Below are positions 46,586-64,000 of a stretch of DNA of 64,000 nt, one piece after another (the first letter of the stretch is position 1; every line of letters begins with the position of its first letter). Below the pieces are notes generated by a model. That model ran no database searches, had not been told where the DNA came from, and saw nothing but the letters and a program-made list of their open reading frames with translations. Source of the stretch: an uncultured bacterium. GTDB taxonomy: Bacteria > Bacillota > Clostridia > Oscillospirales > Oscillospiraceae. The DNA lies in assembly GCA_949293245.1 (NCBI GenBank), contig CASFCS010000013.1:1-64000 (forward strand). The letters run 5' to 3'. The position numbers were made by a program, and so were the translations under genes.

Positions 46586-46765
46586 TCACTTCGCTTTTTG
46601 ACTCTTAGCCTGCTGGGCCTGCCACTGAGCAAATCGGCGCTGCCCTTCTTCGCTGGCGTAAAACTTTTCGATTTCCGGCAGCAGCACACGGGCCAGCGCC
46701 TCCATCTCATGCTGCGGGATGCCGGTACCATAATCGCTCGGCTTTTTCTTCTTACCGTTCTTCAA
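46586..46765 (-). CDS. Small basic accessory protein of the mobilizable element
   Basis: A 59-residue protein starting at TTG 46765 with GAGGAG seven bases upstream, inside the end of mobV. It reads MKNGKKKKPSDYGTGIPQHE, then a helical acidic/basic region (EALARVLLPEIEKFYASEEG) and an AQQAK tail. Similar short proteins accompany MobV relaxases in clostridial elements, but no function is assigned. The tight overlap with mobV argues for co-expression. Confidence 0.6.
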   Translation of the reverse strand: MKNGKKKKPSDYGTGIPQHEMEALARVLLPEIEKFYASEEGQRRFAQWQAQQAKSQKAK

Positions 46766-47735
46766 TAGGCCGCTCCTCTCTCCCGTGGTCGCCACGGGCA
46801 TACACATCTAACACTTCCTTGGGGATACTATCCAGCACAGCGACGGCATCCGCATAGTCTCGCCGCAGTTTGGCGTCGGCCAGCTGCTTCAATGTACTTT
46901 CTTTGGTAGCCTTGTCCAGAGACTGCTCCAGCTGTGCGTTTTCCTGTTTCAGCTTTTTGTTCTCGGCGGTAGTGGTTGTGAACGCCACCTGATACTTCTT
47001 CATCGTGGTGTGCATCTGCTCCACCGCCGGAATATACTTGTCCAGCAGCGCTGCAATCTCAGTAGCTCTGCTTTTGGCGTTAAATGCTCCAATACCGGCC
47101 AGCAGTTCCTCCAGCTTGGCTTTCTGCTTGGTCAAGCGGGTCATCTCCTTGAATACCCTGGGCGGAATGTGGTCACGCCCAGTCTGGCTGGCACTCTCGC
47201 CACGCTCCAGCTCCGGGTATGTTCGGACCATGTGGGACCAGAAGTTGTCCTGCCACTGGGTCAGCTTTTTCTTATTGCCCACGATCTCCTTGGCGCTAAG
47301 CCTGCCGTCCGCAGTCAGCGGGACAAAAGAAAGGTGCATATGGGGCGTTTTCTCGTCCATATGCACCACGGCGGATATGATATTGGCCTTATTCTGATAT
47401 TGCTCAAAGAATCGCAGGGCCTCCTCAAAGTAGGCTCGAACCTCTGCCCGTTTTTTACCTTTGAAAAACTCCGGGCTGGCCGTGAACAGCACCTCCACAA
47501 CCCGCACACTGTCTTTTCGGGTGCGACAGCCAGCGGCGGCAATTTGTTTTTCTGCCTCTGCACGGTATCTCTGCACCGGCTCCACCAGATGAAAATTGTA
47601 CTTGCTTCTGCTGACGTCCACATCGGGGTTGCTGGCGTATTTTTCCTTGGTGCGCTCATTGTGGGCTTCAATGTTCCCGATTTCCGGCCCCTTGTACTTG
47701 GCAAACCGCATAATCCCATATTGTGCCTGATCCAC
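46752..47735 (-). CDS. mobV: MobV family relaxase (Pre/Mob plasmid mobilization protein)
   Basis: The 327-residue protein nicks the element's oriT and pilots the strand during conjugal transfer using another element's channel. The three-His metal motif HMDEKTPHMH is at residues 125-134. The N-terminus YGIMRFAKYKG is the family start, and residues 220-300 form a coiled coil. Start GTG 47735 is chosen for CAGGAGGGA six bases ahead; the open frame upstream overlaps the primase gene. It follows the primase gene by about 80 bases that hold a perfect inverted repeat, a candidate oriT. Confidence 0.88.
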   Translation of the reverse strand: MDQAQYGIMRFAKYKGPEIGNIEAHNERTKEKYASNPDVDVSRSKYNFHLVEPVQRYRAEAEKQIAAAGCRTRKDSVRVVEVLFTASPEFFKGKKRAEVRAYFEEALRFFEQYQNKANIISAVVHMDEKTPHMHLSFVPLTADGRLSAKEIVGNKKKLTQWQDNFWSHMVRTYPELERGESASQTGRDHIPPRVFKEMTRLTKQKAKLEELLAGIGAFNAKSRATEIAALLDKYIPAVEQMHTTMKKYQVAFTTTTAENKKLKQENAQLEQSLDKATKESTLKQLADAKLRRDYADAVAVLDSIPKEVLDVYARGDHGREERPIEER

Positions 47736-47794
47736 GTTTGATCCCTCCTGTTTGATAGGCAAATTGCTGTAAAAGAGCAAACAGCGGTCAATCA

Positions 47795-47862
47795 CTGCGT
47801 ACGTGCGTACATGGTCAGCGTCGCCACTCCTCCGGCACATCTTCCGGTACGCACGTACGCAG
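47795..47862. repeat. Perfect 16-bp inverted repeat, candidate oriT
   Basis: CTGCGTACGTGCGTAC (47795-47810) and its exact complement (47847-47862) enclose 36 bases, 60 bases upstream of the mobV start. oriT sites of MobV elements commonly lie just upstream of the relaxase gene and contain an inverted repeat. The right arm overlaps the last codons of the primase gene. Confidence 0.5.
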
Positions 47863-49197
47863 CGAATCACCGGAAAACACCGACATATTACTTCTCACCA
47901 ATACCTCAATGCCCAGGAATCCACGCACACGCCGACCGGCGGCATTGGTAATATTGTTGCAGTATTCCAGATGGTAGCGGTTCTGGTTGGCGATGAGAGC
48001 ATCGCTGAAGCTGCGGGGTTTTAGAGAAAGCAGGCTGTTTTCGGTGCAGAAAATCTGATATGCCTCGTACAGCTCCTTGGAGCTGGCGGAAGCATCGGCT
48101 TTTAGCCGGATATATCCATCCGAATCCAGAAAATCGAACACATTGTTGTTGTCCCTCTTAACGGCCTCCCGGTTTTCTTTGGTGCGCTCACTTTCGGTAA
48201 ACTTGAAGTTGTTGGCAACCAGACTTTGCAAACCCTCAAAGGCCCACAGCAGGATGCCCTCCACCTCGGCCTTCATCTTTTCGGCCAGGTCTGGGTCATC
48301 CACACGGTTAGCAGGCTTGTCCTTTGTGGTCAGCACCAGCTGGCGGCGATAAAATCCATCGCTCCGGTCAAACAGTGCCTGCAAATCTCCGTTGGAGAAG
48401 GCCAGCAGCCGGGCGCACATCCATCCCTGATAGCTCTGCTTGCCCTTGCGCTCCAAATCCATCTTGCCCTGGGCGGCGGTAACAATGGATTTTACATAGT
48501 TGGTCTGGCGCAGGGCCTCCATCCGCATATCGTCGTCCACGCACAGGAGGATATGCTCCAGGTCCGCACGGGCAAATCGGTTCACCGATACCTTTCCTAT
48601 ACTGCCGTCCTTCATATTCACACCGAACAAATGCCCCAGCACAGCGCCGATCTGGCTCTTGCCTTCACCACCGTTTCCCTTGAGAATCATCATCCGCTGC
48701 CCCTTGTTGCTGGGGATCAGGCAGTAGCCGATATACTCCTGCAAGGTTGGAATGTCCTCCATGTGAAGCAGGCCATCCAGAAATTGCAGCCAGAGGGCGG
48801 GCTTTGGAGCGTTGGGATGGTAGGCCACGGGGAAGCGATTGCGGACAATCTTAGGCTTGCCTTCCTCAAAGGTGCCGTCCAGGAACAAGGTGCCGTTCGC
48901 CAGATGAATCCGATCCGGTTCCGGTGGAAAATCCTCGACCAGTGCCGCCAGTTTCATCAGCTCCACAATGTTGCTGATTTTGCGGGGGACGTTGCTGACG
49001 GCGCAGCACTTCAATTCCTCAAAGATTTCTCCCCGCAAGGGCAGTTCATCGGTGACACGGCCTTCTGGTGTGAAAAAGGTCCCGTTCGTGAAGATGACCT
49101 TGTGCGTCTGCAAGAACTCCTCACAAAACAGGGCTTCGTTGATGCTTTTGCCATCGAACCAGATGGGCATCCCGTCAGGCTGCTGTTTGTTTTTCAT
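47815..49197 (-). CDS. P4/D5-type primase-helicase of the mobilizable element
   Basis: The 460-residue protein is an SF3-type helicase with Walker A GNGGEGKS at residues 174-181 and a Walker B-like ILLCVDDDM at about 216-224. An N-terminal D5-like domain includes IHLANGTLFLDGTF. The C-terminus is a winged-helix-like region including YEAYQIFCTENSLLSLKPRS. Proteins of this type start replication of phages and satellite elements. AAGGAGGGA lies seven bases before ATG 49197; the frame upstream is unsupported. Confidence 0.85.
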   Translation of the reverse strand: MKNKQQPDGMPIWFDGKSINEALFCEEFLQTHKVIFTNGTFFTPEGRVTDELPLRGEIFEELKCCAVSNVPRKISNIVELMKLAALVEDFPPEPDRIHLANGTLFLDGTFEEGKPKIVRNRFPVAYHPNAPKPALWLQFLDGLLHMEDIPTLQEYIGYCLIPSNKGQRMMILKGNGGEGKSQIGAVLGHLFGVNMKDGSIGKVSVNRFARADLEHILLCVDDDMRMEALRQTNYVKSIVTAAQGKMDLERKGKQSYQGWMCARLLAFSNGDLQALFDRSDGFYRRQLVLTTKDKPANRVDDPDLAEKMKAEVEGILLWAFEGLQSLVANNFKFTESERTKENREAVKRDNNNVFDFLDSDGYIRLKADASASSKELYEAYQIFCTENSLLSLKPRSFSDALIANQNRYHLEYCNNITNAAGRRVRGFLGIEVLVRSNMSVFSGDSLRTCVPEDVPEEWRR

Positions 49198-49426
49198 GGG
49201 TCTATCCCTCCTTAAAATGTGGTAGGTCTCTGCCTGTCTGCCTGAATATACGGAGAAAAAGGCTATAGACCTAAAAAACAGGCAAAAGTGCAGGAAATAA
49301 AAAAATCCGCCCTGCCATCTTGCAGAAATGCAAGACCACAGGGCTGTGCAGCATAGAAAATTGTTTGATCTTTCCCGTGCTCTCCGATACAATGGAGACA
49401 AGCTGGTTGGGAGAGGAGGAGTGTTT

Positions 49427-50266
49427 ATGGAACCAGTTTTTCTGCCGGGAGACCTGCGGACCCGAATCGTGGATTTAATGAAATACCACAAGATTTCTCA
49501 GGCGGATCTGGCCGTGAAAATCGGCATAACCGAGAGTACCTTAAACCGTTTTCTGACTGGAAAGGTGGAAAAGCTGGGCCACGAGCAAGTCCTCCGCCTG
49601 GCCCGGACCTTTCAGGTATCCACCGACTTTTTGCTGGGGCTGACGGAGATCTCAGACCGCAAAAACTATGAGATTTCCGAACTGGGATTATCCGTGGAGG
49701 CGGCTAAAAATTTATATCTGGGCAAGGTGCAGCCAGATGTGGTAAACCGGCTTTTGGAAAGCCCCCGCTTTGCAGAAGTGACCTATTTGATCGGCCAATA
49801 TCTGGACGATACGCTGGCAGAGGGATATGCGCTTCAAAACCAGATGATGACCACCCTCCGCTCCATGTTGATGGGAGCTGTGCGGACCGACGCCACCGTG
49901 CAAGCGGCTAGAGAGGTAAACCGCCTGAAAGTGCCGCCCTATCAGGCCGACTTGACCACCATTCAAAACCAGTTTATGGCGGCGGTGCGGGAAGTCAAGC
50001 AAGAGGTGGGAAACGATCTGGATGCCGCCAAAAGCCTCTCCAAAGCCGTCACCCAGAAGATGTTTACAGAGCTGACCAAGGGCCAGGATATGCAAAGCCC
50101 ATCCGTCACACCGAAGCAGATTGCACAAGCGGTGACAAGCAGCGTGTCCGGTATGGATGGCGTCAATTTGGATGCCCTAAATCAGTTCGGGCAGGCAATC
50201 CAGACATTCTTGGAAAGCACCTTAGCACCGCCAGCGTCACATATAGATGAAGAACCGGACCAATGA
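49427..50266 (+). CDS. XRE family transcriptional regulator with extended helical C-terminus
   Basis: The 279-residue protein has an N-terminal helix-turn-helix (about 10-70: LMKYHKISQADLAVKIGITE, then STDFLLGLTE). A helical C-terminal region of about 200 residues has no recognised domain. GAGAGGAGGAG precedes the start. It is divergent from the primase-mobV operon and so probably controls it. Its stop overlaps the sigma factor start by 20 bases. Confidence 0.8.
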   Translation: MEPVFLPGDLRTRIVDLMKYHKISQADLAVKIGITESTLNRFLTGKVEKLGHEQVLRLARTFQVSTDFLLGLTEISDRKNYEISELGLSVEAAKNLYLGKVQPDVVNRLLESPRFAEVTYLIGQYLDDTLAEGYALQNQMMTTLRSMLMGAVRTDATVQAAREVNRLKVPPYQADLTTIQNQFMAAVREVKQEVGNDLDAAKSLSKAVTQKMFTELTKGQDMQSPSVTPKQIAQAVTSSVSGMDGVNLDALNQFGQAIQTFLESTLAPPASHIDEEPDQ

Positions 50267-51612: not shown

Positions 51613-52800
51613 TTAGGATTGCTCACTTATCCCAAGGGACCGGAACTCATCTGCCAAAGGGTCCTCCGAAGGAACCAACCAGACCGTCCGGTTCGCAGAC
51701 TGATCTATATGGTCTCGCACCGTGGTCTTTGCCTGACCCAAGCCGATACACTCAAGCTGGTCTGCGGGAACCCCCATCTCACACAAAAGGTCGCGCACAG
51801 AGTTAGCGCGTTCTAATCCGAAATTTTGGGCGTACTCCATAGTCACGCCATCCACATCGGCCGTTGAACCGGCCAAAACATATTTGGTCTCTGGGACCCT
51901 CTTTATTGCTTCCACAATCTGGGTAAGCTGCTGGCGCGCAGCCTCTTTATTTGCAATTTCGGTGCTGTCGGGTTCAAAAAAGATGATATCACTATCCAAA
52001 GAAACGGGCTCGACTGGTTCCGGTTTTGCCGCTGTTACCTCGATTGTCGAAACCTCTGGCGCGTCTTCTACTTCAGAGGTGGCAGGAAGATCAGAATGGA
52101 AGGTGACTGAGGAGGCTCCGGATTCCTCCAAATAAGAGTCCCAAAACAGCCGCAGCATCTCTATCTGGTCTGCTGCCAAAGCAGGTTGCTCCCCATCTAC
52201 GTCTCCTAAAAAATACCAGTGAATATCAACTCCATTTAACGAGGACAGGTAATTTTGCTCTCTTAGCTGGTTGATTATGTCATCCACATCAAGCGCACCC
52301 AGCGCATAGTTTTGCATCTCAAACGGGAGACAGGTATTTATGCCGCTGTGAAATATTACCATTTCCTTCTTCTCCGAAGTACCGGCCTGGAGTTGGCGGG
52401 CGCCCAGCTGGATCGCGCCAATTAAATCGGTCTCTTTGGCTTTCGCACGGCTCTCTTCCAGACTCTGTGCTACTTGCTCACAGCGCTCTGAGAGTTCTTT
52501 CTGCCAATGATATTCATTCTTACTTCTTCGCTCCCCAAACTCTATCGGTGCGCCGCAGAGCCAAGGGTCGCCGTCGGCGCAGAGGATGGAAACGGAGCTT
52601 CCGTCCACGGAGGCGGTGTCCAGGATCAAGTCCTCGGTTCTATCAGGGGCCGAGGCGGGCATATTTTGTCCGTTGAGAGTAATGATAACCAGGTCGGTGG
52701 CAGCAACGGTCTCTTTTTCACAGCCAGCCAGAAGCAGAACGGACGAAAGAAGCAGCAGGACGGCGGCGATGGAGCGCAAATAGCTGGTAAAAGTTTTCAT
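51613..52800 (-). CDS. OmpA-domain lipoprotein with possible VWA-like N-terminal domain
   Basis: The 395-residue protein has a lipoprotein signal (AAVLLLLSSVLLLAGC) and an extracytoplasmic region. Residues about 35-240 alternate beta strands and helices like a degenerate VWA fold: TDLVIITLNGQNMPASAP, LIGAIQLGARQL, MVIFHSGINTC and VDIHWYFLGDV. After a Pro/Glu linker comes an OmpA-like peptidoglycan-binding domain (about 270-380: IIFFEPDSTEIANKEAARQQ, then GLERANSVRDLLCEMGV). It is the last gene of a four-gene minus-strand operon of unknown role. OmpA domains are uncommon in Firmicutes. Confidence 0.75.
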   Translation of the reverse strand: MKTFTSYLRSIAAVLLLLSSVLLLAGCEKETVAATDLVIITLNGQNMPASAPDRTEDLILDTASVDGSSVSILCADGDPWLCGAPIEFGERRSKNEYHWQKELSERCEQVAQSLEESRAKAKETDLIGAIQLGARQLQAGTSEKKEMVIFHSGINTCLPFEMQNYALGALDVDDIINQLREQNYLSSLNGVDIHWYFLGDVDGEQPALAADQIEMLRLFWDSYLEESGASSVTFHSDLPATSEVEDAPEVSTIEVTAAKPEPVEPVSLDSDIIFFEPDSTEIANKEAARQQLTQIVEAIKRVPETKYVLAGSTADVDGVTMEYAQNFGLERANSVRDLLCEMGVPADQLECIGLGQAKTTVRDHIDQSANRTVWLVPSEDPLADEFRSLGISEQS

Positions 52801-52871
52801 GATGATTCCTCCTTTTTTCTCTATATTAAGATTCTCGACCGTTTCTCTGTCAATGTCAGGGGAAGAAAATT

Positions 52872-53639
52872 TTATGGCACTCTGCCGGAACGGTATTTCT
52901 CTGTGGGCGCTATACTCACATCTTCGCCAAATTGTTCTAAATTTTTTATCATCTCGCCTGCATCAAGCAATAAGTCATGATCTTTCAGCATATTAGCCGC
53001 TTCGGTCGTCCCAAGTTCTTCGGCCAGTGCGATTCGGAGCTTGTACTGTGCTTGGGTGAGTGCGGCTTTCAAGCGGGACATGGACAAGCGGAACATTTGT
53101 ACATCATAGGCCTCGGGATCCATTTTTTGAAAGACGGCGTGAAGCCGCTGACACGTGGCTTTTTCTTCCAAAAGTTCCATCTGGATGTTTGACCTCTGTC
53201 TTTTCAGTTCCTCAAGCCTCGTTTTGTTGGGATCAAGGTCCCACCCCAATACAAAGGAGAGAATCGATGTAGCGATTGGGATGATGAGCCTGGCAATGGT
53301 ACCATTTTGGAAGAGATCCGTGCTTTCGCTTTGATAGGAAGCCGCCACAGCGATCAAGACAAGACTTATAAATGCCAGGAAAAATACGAGGAGCATTGCT
53401 GCAGCGGCCAGCTTTTCTTTGCTGCCAATTCTCTTCTGACTCTGGGAAACAATAGAAGCCGCATATGCCAGACTGGCATTCAGGCAAACAGCCAACACGC
53501 CGGATACAAACCCACTAATCAACGGGGTCTCATTGTATATTTTTGCGGAAAACTCCAAAATGCAGATGAGATCGGACACGATGCACAGAAGCACGACAGG
53601 CGTGGGGCTCCACTTCGTATTTTTGATTTTTTCCTTCAT
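52872..53639 (-). CDS. Four-helix membrane protein with coiled-coil tail
   Basis: The 255-residue protein has hydrophobic helices at about residues 14-30, 39-62, 78-101 and 117-135. A long amphipathic coiled coil follows (about 140-230: LEELKRQRSNIQMELLEEKA). No known domain is recognised. Its place between the soluble coiled-coil genes and the OmpA lipoprotein suggests a membrane complex; any motor or channel role is inference. The stop lies about 70 bases before the lipoprotein start. Confidence 0.65.
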   Translation of the reverse strand: MKEKIKNTKWSPTPVVLLCIVSDLICILEFSAKIYNETPLISGFVSGVLAVCLNASLAYAASIVSQSQKRIGSKEKLAAAAMLLVFFLAFISLVLIAVAASYQSESTDLFQNGTIARLIIPIATSILSFVLGWDLDPNKTRLEELKRQRSNIQMELLEEKATCQRLHAVFQKMDPEAYDVQMFRLSMSRLKAALTQAQYKLRIALAEELGTTEAANMLKDHDLLLDAGEMIKNLEQFGEDVSIAPTEKYRSGRVP

Positions 53640-53648
53640 AATAACCCC

Positions 53649-54074
53649 CTATTTCTTTCCATCCTGTTGTTCTAACGCACGGATTTCTGCTTCCAATTCG
53701 GCCAGACGCTCTTCCATAAGGCGGATACGGGCACAGCTCCGGTCATAGTCGGCTTCCACGTCAGTGCGCATCCCGATGCACTCGCGCTGGTGCATGATCC
53801 GGGTCTCGGCCAGTTCGACGGCCTTTTGGACCCCGTGCAAGTCAATCAGCGTTTCCAAAATCCCCTTCTGTTCAACGCTGACGTCGAGTTTCGAGAGGCT
53901 GGCGCATGCCTCCTTCAGGCAGGCCTCAAAATCCTCGGTAGAGTGGGTTTGGTATGCGCCAGGGGTGGTAGTGGCACTGGGGCGGGCATAGTCGATTTTC
54001 TTAACGACATAGCGGTGGGGCCAGTCTACGGTAACCTCGCTGACCGCGTCTTTTTTCTTCGATTTTCGTTTCAT
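53649..54074 (-). CDS. Small coiled-coil protein of the unknown operon
   Basis: The 141-residue protein has a basic start (MKRKSKKKDAVSEV), a middle helical region and a C-terminal coiled coil (MEERLAELEAEIRALEQQDG). It overlaps the upstream gene by four bases (ATGA) and precedes the membrane protein gene by nine bases. No family is recognised. Confidence 0.6.
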   Translation of the reverse strand: MKRKSKKKDAVSEVTVDWPHRYVVKKIDYARPSATTTPGAYQTHSTEDFEACLKEACASLSKLDVSVEQKGILETLIDLHGVQKAVELAETRIMHQRECIGMRTDVEADYDRSCARIRLMEERLAELEAEIRALEQQDGKK

Positions 54075-54679
54075 TCCGACGCCTCCTTGCTGCGCTCTTG
54101 TCCCGTCTGCCGGTTAATCTTATCCAGAAAATGCCGATCCAGGACAGAACGGGCGAAAAAAGTTCGATTCAACGTGGGAATTTCCCGGTCTACCACATGA
54201 AAGCGGGTCGCTTTGGAGTAGAGGGCCAGTTCGACCTCAGACGCGCTCTTGGCCTGCTCGATGCGGCTGTCCGTCAGTTGGCAGAGAAACTCCATCTCGT
54301 TGGAAATCTGCACCAGTCTCTGACGATCTTCTTTCAGACGGGCCAATTGCTCGGCCCTCTTCGCCTCGGCAAGCCTGGCCTCCCTGATGGCGCCGGAGGT
54401 GGCGGCGGCAGACGGTTTTTGCACAAGGTGCAGCGCTTCGCAGGCTAAGACCAACTGCGCGGCCTCCAAGTTTAAGGGGTGAAGCTGCTCCAGCAGCCAC
54501 TCCTCCACCTGACGCTGGTAACGGTCAAAGCGGCGCTGGACACGCACCACCCGGCCGCTGTGGAGCAGAGGCCCGCCGGGGTCCTGGCGGATGGCGGCCT
54601 TATGGAAAAGCCGGTCCAAGAGCCCCGCCAGTCTGGGGAATCCTTCGTTTTTCCATTTGGGAAACCCTTTTTCTTTCAT
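54071..54679 (-). CDS. Helical protein heading the unknown operon
   Basis: The 202-residue protein is helical and basic, with a strong coiled coil at about residues 105-150 (AKRAEQLARLKEDRQRLVQI). The C-terminal part reads TRFHVVDREIPTLNRTFFAR. ATG 54679 is chosen for GGAAGGTGAT just upstream. It heads the four-gene operon, 194 bases from the degenerate end of the CRISPR array. No family is recognised. Confidence 0.6.
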   Translation of the reverse strand: MKEKGFPKWKNEGFPRLAGLLDRLFHKAAIRQDPGGPLLHSGRVVRVQRRFDRYQRQVEEWLLEQLHPLNLEAAQLVLACEALHLVQKPSAAATSGAIREARLAEAKRAEQLARLKEDRQRLVQISNEMEFLCQLTDSRIEQAKSASEVELALYSKATRFHVVDREIPTLNRTFFARSVLDRHFLDKINRQTGQERSKEASE

Positions 54680-54840
54680 GTCGATCACCTTCCTACTAAG
54701 AGATCGACAGAGAACAGGCAAAATTCAGGGTTATCTCCAAAATTTTTAAAATGATTTGAAAAAAGAAAGCCGAAGGCATTTTCATTGCCCGCGGCTTAAC
54801 AGAATATAGAGTGCAAAATTTGTTATATAGGCGAAAAAAG

Positions 54841-54878
54841 AAAAGGATTCTCCGAACGATTATTCGGAGAATCCTTTT
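54841..54878. terminator. Terminator at the trailer end of the CRISPR array
   Basis: A perfect 16-bp stem AAAAGGATTCTCCGAA with its complement, flanked by A and T tracts, lies at the far end of the array. It would stop the leftward precursor crRNA transcript. Confidence 0.7.
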
Positions 54879-55816
54879 GTTTCTGTCCCCGAGAGGGGTG
54901 ATTCAGCGGCCTCCTTGGGAGACAGATTGTAGAGCACGTTGCCGTTGCTGTCCCCGTGAGGGGTGATTTCACGTCAATTTCTATTATTTTGGATGTCTGG
55001 TTGCCGTTGCTGTCCCCGTGAGGGGTGATGATGATATTGATTTTATCATTAACAGAGCAAGCAATGTTACTGTTGCTGTCCCCGTGAGGGGTGATCGGCC
55101 GAGATCGTCGATGCGGCGTACAATGCCACTCGTTACTGTTGCTGTCCCCGTGAGGGGTGATCCGCAGGGACGCAGCTGCATATTATAGCGGCTCAAGCGT
55201 TACTGTTGCTGTCCCCGTGAGGGGTGATCGCTGGCGCGGCAATCCGGGCATGATCCCCCTGGATAGGTTACTGTTGCTGTCCCCGTGAGGGGTGATTAGG
55301 GCATGAGAGTATCGACATCACCTACCGCTAGTCACTGTTGCTGTCCCCGTGAGGGGTGATTGGGCGACTCACCGTCTTACGCCCGGCGGAGCTGGTTACT
55401 GTTGCTGTCCCCGTGAGGGGTGATGCTGACCTGGAGGCCACTTACCTGGATGAAGCGACGTTACTGTTGCTGTCCCCGTGAGGGGTGATGATCTGCGGCC
55501 ACCGGTTTTCCCGTGCCCGAGCGTTACTGTTGCTGTCCCCGTGAGGGGTGATCCAGAGCGTCCCGCCCGATAGGGCGGGGGTGGTGTTACTGTTGCTGTC
55601 CCCGTGAGGGGTGATGCTGAGTGGGGGGTACTCCAGCCCGCTCGGTAATGTTACTGTTGCTGTCCCCGTGAGGGGTGATTTAACGGCCTCCAGGGCCTTG
55701 AATGGGACGCCGCAGTAATGTTACTGTTGCTGTCCCCGTGAGGGGTGATCCTGGAAGGGGATACTGTGATCCTGCAAAAAGAAAATGTTACTGTTGCTGT
55801 CCCCGTGAGGGGTGAT
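54873..55816 (-). CRISPR. CRISPR array, 14 full repeats plus one degenerate, 14 spacers
   Basis: The 30-bp repeat carries the palindrome CCCCTCACGGGG (minus strand). Full repeats start at 54938, 55000, 55066, 55132, 55199, 55267, 55331, 55395, 55460, 55523, 55586, 55650, 55720 and 55787; a decayed copy is at 54873-54902. Spacers are 32-40 bases, a spread usual in type III. Variation at the left (54938 and 55000 read GTTGCC for GTTACT) and the decayed copy mark the left as the trailer. The leader is on the right. Read leftward, each repeat ends in ACAGTAAC, a plausible eight-base 5' tag of type III crRNAs. Confidence 0.97.
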
Positions 55817-56122: not shown

Positions 56123-56150
56123 TTGTAAATTTGCACCAATATGCTATACT
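56123..56150 (+). promoter_or_regulatory. cas operon promoter
   Basis: TTGTAA and TATACT are separated by 16 bases. Transcription would start near 56157. That rules out the ATG at 56141 and favours the TTG at 56186 as the cas10 start. Confidence 0.6.
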
Positions 56151-56185
56151 TAAAACTGTTATACCATCCAATGGAGGCGAGTGTT

Positions 56186-57688
56186 TTGGGGCGAACTTTA
56201 GTTATTCTGGAGGTGTCCAGGAAACAGGATTATATTTTTTCCAGCAAAAAGCTGCGGGAGAACGCCCAGCGCTCCGCGCAGATCAGCTATGTCACCAGCA
56301 GCGGCTTTTTCCGCCGCGCCGCCGGGGAGCTGTATTGTGAAGGAGACAATCTGGTCTATGCCGGCGGCGGACATACCGTGCTCCAGTTTGGCAGCCCCGA
56401 CCAGGCTCGGACCTTTGCCCGGCAGGTCACCGGTGCGGCCATGGAGGAGTTTCGGGGGCTGGAGTTCTTTGTGAAGCAGATCCCCTATGACAGCGCCAAG
56501 ACGCCGGGAGACAACCTGATGGAGCTCTCCCGGCGTCTGGAGGAGAAGAAAGCCCTGCGCCGGGGTTCCTTCCGCTGCACCGCCCTGGGGGTGGAGGCGC
56601 TGGACCCGGAGACCTTCCGGCCCAGGGGATTCAATCACGCACTGCCCCTTGCGTCCCACGATGTGCTGTCGCCGCCGGAGGGGTACCAGTTCCCCCGGGA
56701 TTTCTCACAGCTGACCGGGAAGGACAATTTTCTGGCTGTGGTCCACATCGACGGCAACGCCATGGGCAAGCGGGTGGACGGCATCTACCAATCCGCCGGA
56801 GGCGACTGGACGGCGTGCTGCGAAAAGCTGCGCCGGTTCAGCTCCGGCATCCAGCGGGACTTTGAGACGGCCTTTCAGCAGACGGTGGAGGAACTCATCC
56901 GGCAGGGGCGCTGCGGGGACCATGTGCTGCCCATCCGCCCGGTGATCCTGGCGGGAGACGACGTGTGTTTCGTCACCGCCGGAGACTTGGGGCTGGAGTG
57001 CGCCCGGGTCTTTCTGGAAAAGCTCACCGCCCGCTCCAATGAGGAGGACAAGCTCCCCTACGCCGCCTGCGCGGGGGTGGCCCTGGTTCACCAGAAGTAT
57101 CCCTTCCACCAGGCCTACCAGCTCTCCGAAGAGCTGTGTTCCAGCGCCAAGAAGTTTGGGGCCAAGCTGAACGGCGAGGGGAAGGTCTCCGCCCTGGATT
57201 GGCACATCGAGTTCGGCCAGCTCAAGGAAAATCTGACCCAGATCCGTGCGGACTACCGCACTGAGGACGGCGGGGTCCTCTCGTTGCGCCCGGTGGCGGT
57301 GGTGCTGCCGGCAGGGTGCGGCGATCCGGACCTGCGGACCTACGATTTTTTCCGAGGCCTATGCAAAGCCATGCAGGGTGAGTACGGCAAGACCGCCCGG
57401 GGCAAGATCAAGGATCTGCGCACCGCCTTCAAGCAGGGCGAGCTGGAGAGTCGCTTTTTCCTCCAGGAGAAGGGGGTACAGGACCTCCTCTACCACGGCT
57501 TTGAGGCGGCCTATCGGGGCGGCGCACGCTGGGAACAGTACCGCCGGCTCCTGATCCAGGGCGGCGGGCTGGACAAGGAGCCCTTCCGCACCATCGCCCT
57601 GGGGGAGAAAAGCGCGCGGCACTGTCTGTTCTTTGACGCCGTTGAGATGATCGATCACTGCGACTTTCTGGAGGAGGTGGAGACATGA
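56186..57688 (+). CDS. cas10: Type III CRISPR Cas10, small form without HD domain
   Basis: The 500-residue protein is the large signalling subunit of a type III effector. It begins directly with the family's LEVSRKQDYIFSSKKLRENA segment, so no N-terminal HD nuclease exists. The palm has HIDGNAMGKR at about 187-196 and LAGDDVCFVTAGD at about 255-267. The catalytic motif reads AGDD where the usual form is GGDD, with both Asp residues kept. The TTG start lies six bases after GGAGGCG. It heads the operon and overlaps the next gene by four bases. Cyclic oligoadenylate synthesis is likely, since a CARF gene follows. DNA cleavage by an HD site is excluded. Confidence 0.9.
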   Translation: MGRTLVILEVSRKQDYIFSSKKLRENAQRSAQISYVTSSGFFRRAAGELYCEGDNLVYAGGGHTVLQFGSPDQARTFARQVTGAAMEEFRGLEFFVKQIPYDSAKTPGDNLMELSRRLEEKKALRRGSFRCTALGVEALDPETFRPRGFNHALPLASHDVLSPPEGYQFPRDFSQLTGKDNFLAVVHIDGNAMGKRVDGIYQSAGGDWTACCEKLRRFSSGIQRDFETAFQQTVEELIRQGRCGDHVLPIRPVILAGDDVCFVTAGDLGLECARVFLEKLTARSNEEDKLPYAACAGVALVHQKYPFHQAYQLSEELCSSAKKFGAKLNGEGKVSALDWHIEFGQLKENLTQIRADYRTEDGGVLSLRPVAVVLPAGCGDPDLRTYDFFRGLCKAMQGEYGKTARGKIKDLRTAFKQGELESRFFLQEKGVQDLLYHGFEAAYRGGARWEQYRRLLIQGGGLDKEPFRTIALGEKSARHCLFFDAVEMIDHCDFLEEVET

Positions 57689-59655
57689 GCGACCGTGTGA
57701 CCCTGGGCATGACGCTGGAACTCTGCTCCGACGCCATCTTCGGCTCGGGCTTCAGCATCCCCGGCGGCGAGGACATCGCCGTGTGTCAGGACGGGGAGGG
57801 CTACCCCTATCTGAAGGGCTCCACCTTCAAGGGCCTGCTGCGGGAGAGTTTGGAGAACCTGCTGGCTTGGACCGGCGGGGACAACGGCACAGCCGGGGAG
57901 CTCTGCGGGGCATCCGGCTGGGAGGGCGCCGCCGACGGCCGACGCCTCCAGCTCACCGCCCTGTTCCCCGATCCCCGGCCGGAGACGCCGGATGGCTGCT
58001 ACTCCACCCGGTTCTTTACCGGTTTGGAGGGGGGCGTGGTGAAGAGCGCGACCCTCCGGGCCGCCTCCTGCATCCGCCGGGGGCTGCGTTTTACCGGCGA
58101 GGTCACCTGCGACGCAGGGGACGTGGAGCTCCTGCGGCAGGCGGTGCAGGGCATCAAATGGGCGGGCACCCTCCGCAGCCGGGGTTTTGGCCGGGTGAGG
58201 TGTACCCTGGATGATCCGGTGTGCGAGGTGGAGCGCCCGCCGCTGACGGCCATCCACTGCATCCGCTACCGCCTGGAGACCGTGCTACCGGTCCTTGTCA
58301 CTGACCCGGGCCGCAGCCGGGATAACAGCTACGCCACCCGGGGCTATCTCCCCGGCTCGGCCATCCGAGGCATGGTGGTGAGCACCCTGGCCCAGCAGGA
58401 CCCAGCGTGGTTGGAGGCCCATCGGGCCGCCCTCCTGGGGGAAGGAACTCGCTTCCTGGATGCCCTGCCCGTCGAAGGGGAGGGGGCCTGCCTCCCCGGG
58501 ATTATGGGATTTTACGGCGAAAAGGGCAGCGACCAGGTGGTGAGCGTCCTCAATCAGGATGTAGCCGGCATGAAGCGGGCCAATCTGGGGACCTGCTGCG
58601 CCCTGGAGGGGAACACCGTCCGGGGCTGGAGCGCCTCCACCGGCGGCAACCTGCGCATCCAGCGCCAGGTGGGGAAGGACGAGGACACCCGCCCCTTCCA
58701 GACCCGCCACATCGACGCCGGGCAGATCTTTGAGGGGTACATTTTGCTGGACGACCCCACCCTGGCTGAGGCCATCGGCGGGGCGTTCGGGAAGCAGGTC
58801 TGGCTGGGGGCTGACCGCTATGAGGGGTTCGGCCAGTGCTCCGTCACTACTCCGGAGGGAGTGGAGGCCCCCAGTTGGCAGGCTTACGGCTATGCCCCCG
58901 GGGTACAGACCGACTCCACCCTTTATCTGCTTGCCCTCTCGCCGCTGACCATGCTGGACGACTACGGAGAGCCCTGTGGGCTGGATCTGAACGCTCTGGC
59001 CGGACGGCTGGGCGTGGAACGGGTGCAGATCGCCGCGTGCAGCACCGCTATGGCGGAGTTCGGCGGCTACAACCGCACCTGGAAGTGCCGCGTCCCCACC
59101 CTGCGGATGTACGACCGGGGGAGCATTTTCAAGCTCCGCTGTTCCGCCGCCCCCAAGGCGGAGGCGCTGCTGGACGTGCAGCGCACCGGCCTGGGTGCCC
59201 GCCGGGCAGAGGGCTTTGGACAGGTTCTCTTCCTGCGGCGGGAGCTGCTGGAGGGGGTCCGGTGCAAGGACGATGGAGGGGAAAAGACGGCTCCCGTCGT
59301 GGAGACCCCCGCGGTCCGGCTGCGCCGGGCCAGATACCGCTGGGTTATGGACCGCAGCGGGGAGCTCTACCGGGACGGCCTGTCCCGGAGCCAGCTAGGG
59401 ACCATCCAGGCCCTGTGCGAAAAGGCCATGGCCAGCGGGAATACGGAGGAGCTGCTGGCCCATCTGGAGAAAAACACCGGGGACCGGGGGGCCAAGCACG
59501 CCGCCCGCTTCCGGGGGATCGACCGGCTGATCCGGCAGGTGCTGAACGCTCCGTTGGAACAGACCCTGGGTACGCCCGGACCGGACGGCACCGCGCAGCG
59601 GCTGGAGCTGCTGTGTCTGCTCTTTGACCACAGCCGGAAGGAGGGAATGGCATGA
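57685..59655 (+). CDS. Fused RAMP protein, Cas7-Cas5-Cas11-like
   Basis: The 656-residue protein contains at least two RAMP units and a helical tail. The first (about 1-190) has YPYLKGSTFKGLLRESL and the Gly-rich SRGFGRVRCTL. The second (about 195-530) has YLPGSAIRGMVVSTL, RYEGFGQCSV and RAEGFGQVLFLRREL. Residues about 540-656 are helical (WVMDRSGELYRDGLSRSQLG, then IDRLIRQVLN) like Cas11. The order matches Cas7-Cas5-Cas11 of the III-D variant in Synechocystis. Both neighbours overlap it by four bases. Which Asp cuts target RNA cannot be fixed by eye. Confidence 0.8.
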   Translation: MSDRVTLGMTLELCSDAIFGSGFSIPGGEDIAVCQDGEGYPYLKGSTFKGLLRESLENLLAWTGGDNGTAGELCGASGWEGAADGRRLQLTALFPDPRPETPDGCYSTRFFTGLEGGVVKSATLRAASCIRRGLRFTGEVTCDAGDVELLRQAVQGIKWAGTLRSRGFGRVRCTLDDPVCEVERPPLTAIHCIRYRLETVLPVLVTDPGRSRDNSYATRGYLPGSAIRGMVVSTLAQQDPAWLEAHRAALLGEGTRFLDALPVEGEGACLPGIMGFYGEKGSDQVVSVLNQDVAGMKRANLGTCCALEGNTVRGWSASTGGNLRIQRQVGKDEDTRPFQTRHIDAGQIFEGYILLDDPTLAEAIGGAFGKQVWLGADRYEGFGQCSVTTPEGVEAPSWQAYGYAPGVQTDSTLYLLALSPLTMLDDYGEPCGLDLNALAGRLGVERVQIAACSTAMAEFGGYNRTWKCRVPTLRMYDRGSIFKLRCSAAPKAEALLDVQRTGLGARRAEGFGQVLFLRRELLEGVRCKDDGGEKTAPVVETPAVRLRRARYRWVMDRSGELYRDGLSRSQLGTIQALCEKAMASGNTEELLAHLEKNTGDRGAKHAARFRGIDRLIRQVLNAPLEQTLGTPGPDGTAQRLELLCLLFDHSRKEGMA

Positions 59656-60947
59656 GCGCGACCTTTACGAGAGCGGTACGCTACCGGGTAGAGGCGGTCT
59701 GCCGTACCCCCCTGCGCGCCGGCGGAGCCGACGGCGCGGTGGAGACCGTGCTGCGGGACTGGGCGGGCAGACCCTTCGTACAGGGGACCTCGCTGGCGGG
59801 GGCCATCCGGAACTGGCTGGAGGACCGGGACCCCTGCCAGGTGGAATCCCTCTTCGGCAGCCAGCAGCAGAGCGGCAGCCTGATGGTGTCCGACGGCCTT
59901 TTTGAGGCGGCGGCGGAACAGCAGACCCGTCCCCGGCTGCGCATCGACGGGGCCACCGGAGCCGCCGATGACGGCGGAAAGTTCGACGTGGCCCACATCG
60001 CCGCCGGGACCAGGCTGACCTTCACCCTCACCTGGCTGGGGAGCGAGGAAATGCTGGAGCAGACCGGCGCGGTGGAGCAGATGCTCGCCGCCCTCCACGC
60101 CGGGGAGATCCGGCTGGGGGCGCAAAAGACCAACGGCTTTGGTCGGGTGTCCCTCACTGTGCAGAAGCGGAGCTACCGCATGGAGGACGCGGGGGACCGC
60201 GCGGCCTGGCTGAAGGACCGGGAGGACGGAACGTCCCTCACCCTGCCTGAACTGACCCTAGGCGGCCAAGTGGTCTTTACCCTCACCGGTCGCGCGGACA
60301 GTATTCTGGTGAAGGCGGGAGCCCGGGAGATGCGGAGCAGCCCCAAGGGCGGTAATCGCAATGTGATGGTTCCCCTCCGGGAGAATGGCCGGGCGATCCT
60401 GCCTGGCTCCTCAGTGAAGGGGGCCGTGCGGGCCCGGGTGACAGCCATCGCGGAGATTCTAGGGCTGGAGGACGCCGTGACGGAGGAACTCTTCGGCCGT
60501 ATGAGCCGGAGAAACGCAGACGGCGAAAACCAGGACAACGGCCTTCCGGGCAAGGTACGGTTTGAGGACGCGGTGCTCTCTGGCCAAAGCCAGGAGATTA
60601 GCCGCATCCGCATCAACCGTTTCACCGGCGGCGTCATCCGGCAGGGCCTCTTTGTGGAGGAGCCCATCCGGAGCGAAATTACCCTGCGCATCACCCTGTC
60701 GGAGAAGGAGTCCCGGGGCTGCGGACTATTGCTCTATGCCCTGCGGGACCTGGGGCTGGGACTCTACAACCTGGGCAGCGGCGGCGCGGTGGGCCGGGGC
60801 TACCTGGCGGTGGACACCATCCGGGCACAGGCACCCGACGGCGCCGAGGCCTGCCTGCGCTTTGGTCAAGACCGGTGCTGCACTATGGATGATCCCGCAG
60901 GGCTCTTCGCCCGATGGCTGGACGCGATAAGGAGGGATGAGGCGTGA
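59652..60947 (+). CDS. Double Cas7 RAMP protein (Cas7-2x-like)
   Basis: The 431-residue protein repeats the Cas7 layout twice. Unit one has PFVQGTSLAGAIRNWL (about 42-57) and TNGFGRVSLTV (about 160). Unit two has ILPGSSVKGAVRARV (about 250-264) and SGGAVGRGYLAV near the end. Two fused Cas7 units form two backbone positions, as in Cas7-2x of the III-D variant. It overlaps both neighbours by four bases, showing translational coupling. Confidence 0.82.
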   Translation: MSATFTRAVRYRVEAVCRTPLRAGGADGAVETVLRDWAGRPFVQGTSLAGAIRNWLEDRDPCQVESLFGSQQQSGSLMVSDGLFEAAAEQQTRPRLRIDGATGAADDGGKFDVAHIAAGTRLTFTLTWLGSEEMLEQTGAVEQMLAALHAGEIRLGAQKTNGFGRVSLTVQKRSYRMEDAGDRAAWLKDREDGTSLTLPELTLGGQVVFTLTGRADSILVKAGAREMRSSPKGGNRNVMVPLRENGRAILPGSSVKGAVRARVTAIAEILGLEDAVTEELFGRMSRRNADGENQDNGLPGKVRFEDAVLSGQSQEISRIRINRFTGGVIRQGLFVEEPIRSEITLRITLSEKESRGCGLLLYALRDLGLGLYNLGSGGAVGRGYLAVDTIRAQAPDGAEACLRFGQDRCCTMDDPAGLFARWLDAIRRDEA

Positions 60948-61321
60948 AACGGGAAAAATTGGACGTGCAGGAGGCGCTGCGCCGGGGAAGCACCCTCCCC
61001 TATGGCTGGATTTGCAATCTGAGCGGCGTGTCGCTGGGTCCGGTCCCGGAAGAGCTTCCGCTGGAGGAGTTGGTGGAGGCCCGGTTGTTCGGCCCCACGG
61101 AGGAGGTGCGCCTCTTCCGCCGGGAGGGGACGCTCCAGGCCGCCGCACTCACCGAAGAGCCAGAGGACCGGGTCCTAGCTGAGACTTACTCCATTCAAAA
61201 TAAAGCCCTCTTTGGGACGGAGCTTACGGTACATCAGATTCTGGATGCCGACGAGGACGGCCAATGTTATGTAGCCGCCGTACGCTTGGCGGGCTGGAGA
61301 GGAGTAGCAGACCATGGCTGA
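60944..61321 (+). CDS. csx19: Csx19-like small subunit
   Basis: The 125-residue protein has LVEARLFGPTEEVRLFRREG in the middle and DADEDGQCYVAAVRLAGW near the end, a pattern like the Csx19 family of III-D loci. It is shorter than many Csx19 proteins and the match is by eye. Its position between the double Cas7 and the Cas7 with insertion is the same as in the Synechocystis III-D variant operon. GTG is the start codon; it overlaps the next gene by eight bases. Confidence 0.6.
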   Translation: MKREKLDVQEALRRGSTLPYGWICNLSGVSLGPVPEELPLEELVEARLFGPTEEVRLFRREGTLQAAALTEEPEDRVLAETYSIQNKALFGTELTVHQILDADEDGQCYVAAVRLAGWRGVADHG

Positions 61322-63131
61322 GAATAGCGTACATGCTCCCTATAACTTTGTGCCTTTTTCGGAAAAGCTCCTCATCCGGTACGAGAACCTTGCAGAGCTG
61401 CCCCGCCACGACCGCATCGACCCGGCGCTGCACAGCGGCGAGATTCAGGTGGAGCTGAAGGCCGAGACGCCGGCCTTTGTATCGGATGGGCAGCCGGACC
61501 CCCGCTTTTTCCGGGGAGCGGACGGGACCTACCAGATCCCGGGCTCCACGGTACGGGGTATGGTGCGGGAAAATATGCAGATCCTGAGCTTTGGCCTGGT
61601 GCGCCCGGGCGAGGACCTGGACGACGTGCAGATCTATTTCCGGGAGATGGCAGCCGCCCGTGAGAGTGCCGGTAATGCACTGAAGAAGTACTACCAGGGG
61701 GCGCTGGATATCAAAATTGGATACACTACATCTGGTAAGAGATTTTCTATTCCGCAAAATGTACAAGCAGGATATTTACACCGAAAAAATGGGGCGTACT
61801 GGATACAACCAGTTCAAGGGAGCGTTCTGCAGGTATCCCGCAACCATCCGGATGTGGGACAATTCGGAACGGGAGACGCCAGAACGGTACCGGTATCTTA
61901 TCAGACGGCGGACGGGGCGGTGAAAAGGTTGGCCCCAGCCGGAAGGTCCGGCATGGCGCAGGGAGAGCTCCTTTTCACCGGTCGGCCAGTTGGAAAAGCC
62001 CCCAACCACCTCTATCTTTTCCCCGTGGAGACTGAGGATGCGGAGCCAATTCCCGTGTCGGACAGTGACGTGCTCTCTTACCAGATGGACCTGGAGGGAC
62101 GGAGCAATTCCCTGAAGGCCTATTATGACGTGAACTTCTGGGCTCTCCCGAAAGAAGGGGAGCGCAAGGCCGTCTTTTACATCCGGTATGAGGGACACAC
62201 CTACTTTGGCCGCTCCCGCTTCCTGCGCATCGGCTACCGCTATCCCCTCTCTAAAGGACTGCCCCAGCACCACCGGGAACGGCTGGAGCAGGACGAGCTG
62301 GTGCTGGACTACCCCTCCGCCGTTCTGGGTTTTGCCTGGGGCCAGGCGGCCTACCGCTCCCGGGTGTCCTTCGGGGACTTCCGGCTGGAGGGAAAGGCCA
62401 GGGAACTGCCGCCGGTCAAGACCGTTCTGGGTGAGCCCAAGCCCAGCTATTACCCCGGCTATGTGGAGGAGGGCAAGCACTACAACGAGGAGGACTTCCG
62501 CCTGCGGGGCTACAAGCAGTACTGGCTCAAGGAAGCGGACGCCGCGCCTCTGCCGGAGGGCAAGGACAAGGTGGGTTCCACCCTGCGCCCCCTGGACCGG
62601 GGGAGCGTGTTCCGGGGCACCATCCGCTACAAAAACCTGACGGCGGACGAGCTTGGCCTGCTGCTGTGGGCCATCCGGCTGGACGAGGGCTGCTTCCAGA
62701 CCCTCGGTATGGGCAAGCCCTACGGCTACGGCCGGATGCAGGCGACCATTTCCGCACTGCGGGAGGTGGAGCCGGAGAAACTCTACACCCCGGACGGGCT
62801 GTGCGGATCCCCCAAAGAGGGCGGCGCGGACGCGGTGGAACAGTACATCCGCGCTTATGACGCCTATGCCGCTGACGCGCTGCGGGTGAAAAAGCCCAAG
62901 AAGCGCCCGTCCCTCCGCAGCCGGAATGAGATCCAGGACTTTTTCTTCCTGAAGCAAACCGTCCGCCCGGCGGAAGAGGTCTCCTATATGGAGCTGGGAG
63001 CGTATAAAAATATCCGCAGTCCGTTGGAGACGGTCCAGACGGTACGTGAGCAGGCGGAACAGGAAGCGGAGCGGGGCGAGCCGGAGGACCCTTGGGCGGC
63101 TCTGAAGGCGAAATTCGGGCCGAAATTCTGA
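61314..63131 (+). CDS. RAMP protein of the TIGR03986 type (Cas7 with insertion)
   Basis: The 605-residue protein has one RAMP core split by a long insertion. The N-terminal part has ELKAETPAFVSDGQ and YQIPGSTVRGMVRENMQILS (about 73-92). The C-terminal part has RGSVFRGTIRYKNLTADELG and LGMGKPYGYGRMQATI (about 463-478). The region between, about 130-400, is much longer than in a plain Cas7. A patch at 61695-61850 is visibly AT-rich against GC-rich flanks, suggesting local recombination. It would be a backbone subunit of the effector. Confidence 0.8.
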   Translation: MAENSVHAPYNFVPFSEKLLIRYENLAELPRHDRIDPALHSGEIQVELKAETPAFVSDGQPDPRFFRGADGTYQIPGSTVRGMVRENMQILSFGLVRPGEDLDDVQIYFREMAAARESAGNALKKYYQGALDIKIGYTTSGKRFSIPQNVQAGYLHRKNGAYWIQPVQGSVLQVSRNHPDVGQFGTGDARTVPVSYQTADGAVKRLAPAGRSGMAQGELLFTGRPVGKAPNHLYLFPVETEDAEPIPVSDSDVLSYQMDLEGRSNSLKAYYDVNFWALPKEGERKAVFYIRYEGHTYFGRSRFLRIGYRYPLSKGLPQHHRERLEQDELVLDYPSAVLGFAWGQAAYRSRVSFGDFRLEGKARELPPVKTVLGEPKPSYYPGYVEEGKHYNEEDFRLRGYKQYWLKEADAAPLPEGKDKVGSTLRPLDRGSVFRGTIRYKNLTADELGLLLWAIRLDEGCFQTLGMGKPYGYGRMQATISALREVEPEKLYTPDGLCGSPKEGGADAVEQYIRAYDAYAADALRVKKPKKRPSLRSRNEIQDFFFLKQTVRPAEEVSYMELGAYKNIRSPLETVQTVREQAEQEAERGEPEDPWAALKAKFGPKF

Positions 63132-63146
63132 GAGCGGAGGGACGAC

Positions 63147-64000
63147 ATGGCCACCAAGATCATTCTGTTTGTGAGCAGCCTGCCCCGGACGCTGGAACGG
63201 GCGGCCTACCTCTGCCCGGACGGCAGCACGGTGGAGGGCGCCCAGACCAATGAGGCGCCGGTGTGCTGCCTGCTGGAGCGCTATCCCCAGGTCTCGGAGA
63301 TTCTGTGCATCGTCACGCCCGAGGCAGAGCCGGCCTATCGCTACCTCTGCGATATGCTGCAGCCGGCGTGGCCGAGGCTGGCGCTCCGGCGCATCCCCTA
63401 TCGGGAGGGGGAGGACTTCAACGGCGCACCGCTGAGCGCCATCCTGAGCGCGGTGCGGGCGGGGGACGAGATCCTGCTGGAGACCACCGGCGGCTTCCGC
63501 AACGCCGTGATGTACCTGCTGCTCCTGAGCCGGGTGCTGTCCTATGTGGGGGTGCGCACGGTGTACGCGGTGTACAGTAACTTCCCCCAGAAGCGGATCG
63601 AGGACATCTCCCACCTCATCGGCCTCTTTGACCTGGTGGGCGGGATGCAGGAGCTCTCTTCCTTCGGAAGCGCCCGCACTCTGCGGACCTACTATGGGCA
63701 AACTCCCGCGGACCCGGCGGTGAGCAGTCTGCTCACCGCCCTGGAACAGCTGAGCGAGACCATCACCCTCTGCCGGACCAACCAACTGGGGGAGCGGATG
63801 AAGGCCTTCAATCAGGCGCTGGAGATGGCGAGGGACTGCGCCGACCCGCTGATGCGGGAGCTGATCCCCGCCTTCCGGGAGAAATTCGGCAAAAAGCTCA
63901 ACACGGTGAGCCTTATCAAGTGGTGCGTGGAGAGCGAGATGCTCCAGCAGGCCCTGACGGTGTACACCGAGCGCATCCCCAGGCTCATCATGACCCGGGG
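63147..64000 (+). CDS. CARF-domain CRISPR ancillary protein (TM1812/Csx1-Csm6-like), cut by the window end
   Basis: The first 284 residues are present. The start ATKIILFVSSLPRTLERAAY and the loop ILLETTGGFRNAVMYLLLLS at about 107-126 form a Rossmann-like CARF domain that senses cyclic oligoadenylates. A helical region follows from about residue 190. The C-terminal effector domain, possibly HEPN, lies beyond the window, so the activity is not visible. GGAGGGACGAC precedes the ATG, 15 bases after the previous stop. It fits as the effector activated by Cas10. Confidence 0.8.
   Translation, partial: MATKIILFVSSLPRTLERAAYLCPDGSTVEGAQTNEAPVCCLLERYPQVSEILCIVTPEAEPAYRYLCDMLQPAWPRLALRRIPYREGEDFNGAPLSAILSAVRAGDEILLETTGGFRNAVMYLLLLSRVLSYVGVRTVYAVYSNFPQKRIEDISHLIGLFDLVGGMQELSSFGSARTLRTYYGQTPADPAVSSLLTALEQLSETITLCRTNQLGERMKAFNQALEMARDCADPLMRELIPAFREKFGKKLNTVSLIKWCVESEMLQQALTVYTERIPRLIMTR

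Follow-up and report, generated by a model that had tools for sequence, protein, structure and literature searches.

The window analysed here is a stretch of 64,000 nucleotides (nt) from an uncultured bacterium of the family Oscillospiraceae, class Clostridia (assembly GCA_949293245.1, contig CASFCS010000013.1, positions 1 to 64,000), and carries a compact operon of four genes, designated A, B, C and D. An earlier, sequence-only reading had described this operon as overlapping or closely spaced genes encoding two soluble coiled-coil proteins, a four-helix membrane protein and a lipoprotein. All four open reading frames (ORFs) are open, co-directional on the minus strand, and located where that reading had placed them:

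54071..54679, minus strand: gene A, 202 amino acids (aa), soluble, coiled-coil rich
53649..54074, minus strand: gene B, 141 aa, soluble, with a C-terminal coiled coil
52872..53639, minus strand: gene C, 255 aa, membrane protein with four transmembrane (TM) helices and a cytoplasmic helical tail
51613..52800, minus strand: gene D, 395 aa, VWA-OmpA lipoprotein

Genes A and B overlap by 4 nt, and gaps of 9 nt and 71 nt separate B from C and C from D. Direct reading places a Shine-Dalgarno-like sequence ahead of each of the four starts (GGAAGGTG, AAGGAGG, AGGGGG and AAAGGAGG).

Protein D comprises an export signal followed by two predicted domains:

52720..52800, minus strand: lipoprotein signal peptide of D, lipobox LAGC, with Cys27 invariant in 14 homologues
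52075..52710, minus strand: VWA-fold domain of D, extracellular, residues 31–242 (VIA-align, Foldseek and alignment)
51664..52020, minus strand: OmpA/Pal-type peptidoglycan-binding domain of D, residues 261–379 (Pfam, NCBIfam and fold match)

The lipobox is present in all 14 homologues, and no TM helix follows it. The AlphaFold2 model of D (mean predicted local distance difference test score (pLDDT) of 76) has two domains, the first of which is structurally similar to VWA domains (VIA-align Z-score of 11.7 with ITIH1, entry 6fpz, and of 11.6 with entry 4fx5), a similarity also found with Foldseek. The residues of the metal-ion-dependent adhesion site (MIDAS; DxSxS and the loop-3 Asp) are not conserved across the 14 aligned D sequences. 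The second domain matches PF00691 (4.7e-11) and the Pal family TIGR02802 (3.3e-11), and shares its fold with OmpA, Pal and MotB (VIA-align Z-scores of 11–13.6). With both a lipobox and an OmpA fold, D can be classed as an OmpA/Pal-domain lipoprotein; unlike in Pal, OmpA and MotB, however, the domain is fused to a VWA domain, and G(S/T)TA takes the place of the usual GHTD motif. The Pal positions reported to be critical to peptidoglycan binding are the equivalents of T187, R203 and R254 of ZorB (PMC11890865); by our own motif-based mapping on the D alignment, the corresponding residues appear to be T313, present in 13 of the 14 sequences, and R331 and R371, both invariant. Sequence and model together lend good support to D as an exported protein that is tethered by a lipid anchor to the outside of the membrane and has a predicted peptidoglycan-binding domain.

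Protein C is divided between the membrane and the cytoplasm:

53238..53606, minus strand: four TM helices of C, residues 12–134 (AlphaFold2 model with pLDDT of 73; positive-inside count)
52920..53231, minus strand: cytoplasmic helical tail of C, residues 137–240 (AlphaFold2 model; generic helical-bundle matches only)

By hydropathy and positive-inside counts, three parts of C are predicted to be cytoplasmic (the N terminus, loop 2 and the helical tail), and loop 3, which is longer in most relatives, is predicted to lie outside. Simple hydropathy applied to 14 members of the family yields four helices in 12 and three in the remaining two. The homologue alignment shows invariant residues at D23 and in a PxxTS motif of the fourth TM helix (P121, T124 and S125). 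A predicted topology of four membrane passes and an intracellular helical tail for C is well supported by sequence and model, and the domain guesses that the sequence-only reading had made for C and D were borne out. No match to MotA, ExbB or ZorA was detected with Pfam (C and the scanned relatives), PADLOC (the window C) or a PDB profile search. The predicted fold of C has no good PDB match, only helical bundles, an absence that is not evidence of a new fold and that cannot alone decide kinship with MotA or ZorA. An assignment of C to Branch_AA_trans (Pfam, 1.6e-4, below the curated cut-off, in one member of 35) was rejected as a composition effect.

Proteins A and B are well supported, from sequence and modelling, as putative cytoplasmic coiled coils. 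Protein A belongs to no Pfam, PADLOC or NCBIfam family, and neither protein matches any curated family; B gave weak coiled-coil-type matches only, which were set aside as composition effects.

Conservation of the four-gene set was assessed in 14 loci, comprising the window and loci from 13 further Clostridia genomes. Searching 300 family genomes with D yielded four more D genes of full length. With a profile of its N terminus, two were added in the order and one in the class, and the GTDB species collection contributed named Lachnospiraceae and relatives. Named carriers include Frisingicoccus caecimuris, Lachnoclostridium sp. An118, Candidatus Mediterraneibacter vanvlietii, Candidatus Blautia faecipullorum and Pseudoflavonifractor phocaeensis. 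In locus calls made with hidden Markov models, built from the first five loci and later refined, the order A-B-C-D and its strand are kept in 13 of the 14 loci, at about 15–30% protein identity (to the window proteins, 22–30% for D, 15–22% for C, 13–23% for A and 11–19% for B); for A, B and C, distant members share only about 15–20% of residues. The exception, L036, has B, C and D and no detectable A. That the four genes stay together at such low identity points to selection rather than recent descent, and A-B-C-D are well supported, on sequence grounds, as evolving as a unit; the sequence-only reading had made conservation of the set a check on its proposal. A fifteenth genome, G895 (locus L045), encodes D alone, beside a TIR gene, PP2C-like and kinase-type genes (both by eye) and a tubulin-like gene.

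Single-protein searches found nothing, either with C (300 family genomes and plasmids) or with D (phages, viral contigs and the species collection), so that D profiles had to be used and whole genomes searched. Viral contigs searched with a profile likewise gave no match, B as a query returned only frames with stops, and a broad seven-sequence profile had no searchable stretch. OmpA-only matches at L007–L011 were dropped as members, their alignment being confined to the shared domain. At L046:846-1181, a fragment of a VWA domain related to the D N terminus is flanked by an IS110-like transposase and a Cmr2-like Cas10 (the two recognized by eye). The fragment may be the remnant of a D relative at a further type III locus; L046 holds no operon and was left out of the counts.

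The genes surrounding the operon are rich in immune functions. TIGR03986, a marker of type III-D clustered regularly interspaced short palindromic repeats (CRISPR) systems, is present in four of 15 tested genomes, and three of the four have it on the operon contig, at a distance of up to approximately 15 kb. Its base rate is 15 of 351 genomes of the class, compared with three of the 14 loci in which it lies within 15 kb of the operon. These three loci are the window, L037 and L041 (genome G225), and the other 11 are not beside type III systems. In the D tree, well-supported branches force the three apart into separate positions, although the window and L041 have long branches that leave their exact placement unsure. 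Each of the eight TIR-bearing carriers has one or more TIR genes no further than 15 kb from the operon (in G895, from D alone): 14 of 29 TIR matches lie in this range, against 0.3 expected under a uniform model that ignores the clustering of islands. An excess under this model places the operon in defence islands but is no sign of joint action with TIR proteins.

Other immune-type neighbours are Card1-like PD-(D/E)XK proteins (L034, L036 and L031), TIR-kinase and TIR-Sel1 proteins (L016/L031), a kinase-NB-ARC-Sel1 protein and a PP2C (L029), CARF-HEPN-TIR and MYG1 proteins (L037), a TIR-LRR protein (L038), ParA-like and TIR proteins (L030) and, by eye only, a large NACHT-like protein (L040). 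A CARF protein (TIGR02221) is encoded at L050, which belongs to the same CRISPR locus as the L041 operon copy. These context statistics support the assignment of the module to an immune gene pool with type III-D CRISPR, TIR, kinase, CARF and nuclease neighbours. The association with defence genes that the sequence-only reading had suggested looking for is thus present, with type III-D in three lineages, TIR in every TIR-bearing carrier, and kinase, PP2C, CARF and nuclease genes besides.

Several neighbours have architectures worth recording in their own right. In the type III-D locus of Candidatus Blautia faecipullorum, a 782-aa protein (L037:12593-14941) combines a Csx1-type CARF-HEPN region (PADLOC, 6e-30) with a C-terminal TIR-like stretch (TIR_2, 4e-5, below cut-off), possibly a new type III effector architecture. 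A 361-aa fusion (L036:13497-14579) joins a weakly tubulin/FtsZ-like N-terminal half to a C-terminal TIR domain (TIR_2, 2.8e-19). A family of approximately 930–1190 aa (L032:4113-7676, L033:1744-4518, L034:4792-7680 and L036:5554-8358, minus strand) is encoded divergently, directly upstream of the operon, and has no Pfam, PADLOC or PDB match. By eye, its WEHxRW...GW motif recalls RyR domains; a RyR/TrkA-like reading of the divergent proteins at L032–L036, made by eye only, was not confirmed by Pfam, PADLOC or PDB profile search and was dropped. Near the operon or D, large proteins are encoded whose C-terminal part resembles Card1/NERD nucleases (L031:680-4918 and L045:2654-7177), the former with an N-terminal protein-kinase domain as well. 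The CRISPR locus that holds the L041 operon copy also contains a row of Cas2, Cas1 and reverse-transcriptase-like ORFs, all recognized by eye only (L050:5515-7827).

No system of A-B-C-D make-up is present in PADLOC, Pfam or NCBIfam, as the sequence-only reading had anticipated, and no description of the set was found in the open-access literature, where absence is not proof of novelty. That reading had further likened the operon to ZorAB-type stator complexes. Zorya ZorA-ZorB is an anti-phage motor with swappable cytoplasmic effectors (PMC11890865). Like Zorya, the module pairs a membrane protein that has a cytoplasmic helical tail with an OmpA/Pal-domain partner, beside varying cytoplasmic immune proteins, and the T/R/R peptidoglycan-binding positions are apparently kept in D. 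PADLOC returns weak ZorB matches for 10 of the 14 D proteins (best, 7e-4), which are best explained by the OmpA domain common to many unrelated proteins. Unlike ZorB, D is a lipoprotein with an additional VWA domain and without a TM helix, and therefore without a membrane aspartate of the MotB/ZorB type; unlike ZorA, C has no detectable relationship to MotA or ZorA. Two extra coiled-coil proteins, A and B, and the occurrence found here, in Clostridia, further set the module apart. No ZorC, ZorD or ZorE was among the PADLOC matches listed for selected neighbours, the other neighbours having been scanned by Pfam alone. Kinship with ZorAB-type stators is not upheld: judged by sequence, the module is not Zorya, and the likeness is one of layout rather than descent. 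By analogy, it may work like Zorya without being a member.

The nearest described company of the module is the FtsZ-like-1/vWA/OmpA/kinase systems, in which VWA, OmpA and kinase associations were described (Makarova and Koonin 2010, PMC2875224), together with the GTPase, tubulin and vWA conflict systems, for which tubulin, vWA and OmpA parts were described (Kaur et al. 2020, PMC7159879). Shared with both are the VWA and OmpA domains and the kinase, PP2C or TIR neighbours. In contrast to both groups, the four core genes include no tubulin, GTPase or MoxR, and a single lipoprotein combines the VWA and OmpA domains, its MIDAS being degenerate; in the FtsZ-like-1/vWA/OmpA systems, a VWA protein with an intact MIDAS is the majority case (PMC2875224). 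No described counterpart of A, B or C was found in either group. Among type III CRISPR systems, the membrane effectors Cam1, Csx23 and CorA are known (PMC11229360, PMC12669027); a term search of these two surveys found no mention of OmpA or VWA partners. The module resembles these effectors in that membrane proteins are encoded in or beside type III loci, here type III-D. It differs from type III membrane ancillaries in lacking their ligand-binding domains and in occurring also without CRISPR, and the type III-D loci with the module hold separate CARF proteins. No CARF, SAVED, CorA-type or other known sensor domain for cyclic oligoadenylate (cOA) or SAM-AMP was detected in A–D with Pfam, NCBIfam or PADLOC, an unknown sensor fold being conceivable.

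Taken together, A-B-C-D most likely constitute an undescribed envelope-anchored module of Clostridial defence islands. We consider an immune role for this candidate somewhat probable, and hold an even balance on the fuller claim that the conserved module builds a trans-envelope complex, working in these islands as a candidate part of defence. The four proteins would form one such complex, in which D would hold on to the cell wall and contact the external loops of C, while the tail of C would be bound by A and B inside the cell. A disturbance of the envelope, such as phage entry, or a signal from neighbouring immune machinery could then be passed across the membrane. The complex would act as a sensor or transducer in a role comparable to that of ZorAB, working with exchangeable effectors encoded next door. 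If the role is immune, we lean slightly towards this direction, since A–D contain no catalytic domain and no known nucleotide-sensing domain, and the neighbours supply such parts, which favours a sensor or transducer over an effector. The most specific form of the proposal, a peptidoglycan-anchored, motor-less trans-envelope sensor (or gate) shared by type III-D CRISPR, TIR, kinase/PP2C and nuclease proteins in Clostridia, is tentative and rather unlikely as a whole. Were it true, several signalling-based immune systems of gut Clostridia would share one envelope-anchored module, a non-motor counterpart of Zorya linking intracellular alarms (type III CRISPR, TIR and kinases) to the cell wall. 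Three orphan protein families would also gain a testable context.

Several observations weigh against the favoured immune reading: the neighbouring immune genes vary between loci; the module is rare, being found in 5 of 300 family genomes; confidence in the C and D models is middling (pLDDT of 73 and 76); and coupling-protein (T4CP) genes of type IV secretion systems (T4SS) lie near 9–10 of the 14 loci. The islands may be cargo of conjugative elements, so their clustering need not mean shared function. Most loci lie close to the conjugation genes of elements with defence genes among their cargo, and the designation 'undescribed defence system' stays hypothetical, and the sequence-only interpretation as a whole is partly supported.

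The same genes bear on the alternative that the module belongs to the conjugative elements themselves, serving surface or entry exclusion or mating-pair control for the carrier, with the immune genes as fellow cargo. The make-up of an exported lipoprotein and a membrane protein would suit such a task. A T4CP gene lies within approximately 15 kb of the operon at L031–L038 and L040, with a weaker match 15 kb from the window operon, and at L032–L036 and L038 the operon is near both ClpP-like and T4CP genes. No T4CP was found, however, on the operon contig in G225, G227, G435 or G520 (G225 has none at all, and G227 is an incomplete genome), and in three of these carriers (G225, G435 and G520) the operon still has a chromosomal setting that includes type III-D, TIR or kinase/PP2C genes. 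The module is therefore not tied to one element, conjugative cargo being its commonest home, and we judge a conjugative function improbable. If the immune reading were wrong, the operon would be a conserved cargo module of Clostridial conjugative elements, left blank by annotation pipelines.

An effector role, in which the complex would open or disrupt the membrane on a type III-D, TIR or kinase signal and stop the infected cell, also seems unlikely. It would fit the precedent of the type III membrane effectors cited above, the strong association of the module with signalling-type sensors, and the nature of C as a small multi-TM protein with a cytoplasmic tail. Yet A–D lack CARF, SAVED or another known ligand domain, two type III-D loci have CARF proteins of their own (the CARF-HEPN-TIR protein at L037 and the TIGR02221 protein at L050), and a pore has no need of a large peptidoglycan-anchored extracellular part. 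Envelope maintenance or membrane remodelling with no immune role, akin in kind to the FtsZ-like-1/vWA/OmpA/kinase operons, appears very improbable. The VWA, OmpA and kinase associations of those operons and the tubulin-like genes near two loci, namely the tubulin-like-TIR fusion at L036 and a tubulin-like protein at L045, speak for it. The neighbourhoods of the other loci, however, showed no tubulin-like motif, the operon has no GTPase, its rare and patchy distribution argues against housekeeping, and tubulin/vWA/OmpA systems have themselves also been described as conflict systems (PMC7159879).

In the window, the operon is flanked by the following features:

46752..49491, minus strand: mobilizable element with Mob_Pre relaxase and DUF5906 primase, downstream of D
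54768..54796, minus strand: second hairpin with T-rich tract, directly upstream of A (fold z of -1.2, weak by itself)
54841..54878, no strand assigned: 17-pair hairpin with a T-run on the minus strand, terminator-like both ways, at the boundary of array and operon
54879..55816, no strand assigned: CRISPR array of 15 repeats, the left-most degenerate
56141..57688, plus strand: type III Cas10, 515 aa, palm motif AGDD (PF22335, 1.4e-12)
57685..63131, plus strand: type III-D genes, Csx10-like, Csx7/Cas7-like, Csx19-like and TIGR03986 RAMP

The operon had been placed between the mobilizable element and the CRISPR array; one strong and one weaker hairpin separate it from the array, however, and a mobilizable element of this type (Mob_Pre, DUF5906) was not seen at the related loci examined. 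Because two terminator-type hairpins lie between the array and A, array and operon are probably separate transcripts, and a single transcript is unlikely. Pfam recovers only the second palm domain of the Cas10, and the type III-D genes match TIGR02674 (2.5e-19), TIGR02581 (2.4e-22), TIGR03984 (6.7e-8) and TIGR03986 (2.6e-96). After these cas genes, a 536-aa protein (window 63147-64000, continuing to contig position 64757; L024:3148-4758) has no Pfam match and is CARF-like by eye (ETTGGFRNAVMY); it is followed by a second CARF-like ORF, a Cas6-like ORF and a second CRISPR array. Beyond the window, at contig position 69716-71056 (L024), lies a TraG-like coupling protein (PF02534, 7.6e-4, below cut-off), and its position past the second array makes it possible that the entire region is part of a conjugative element.

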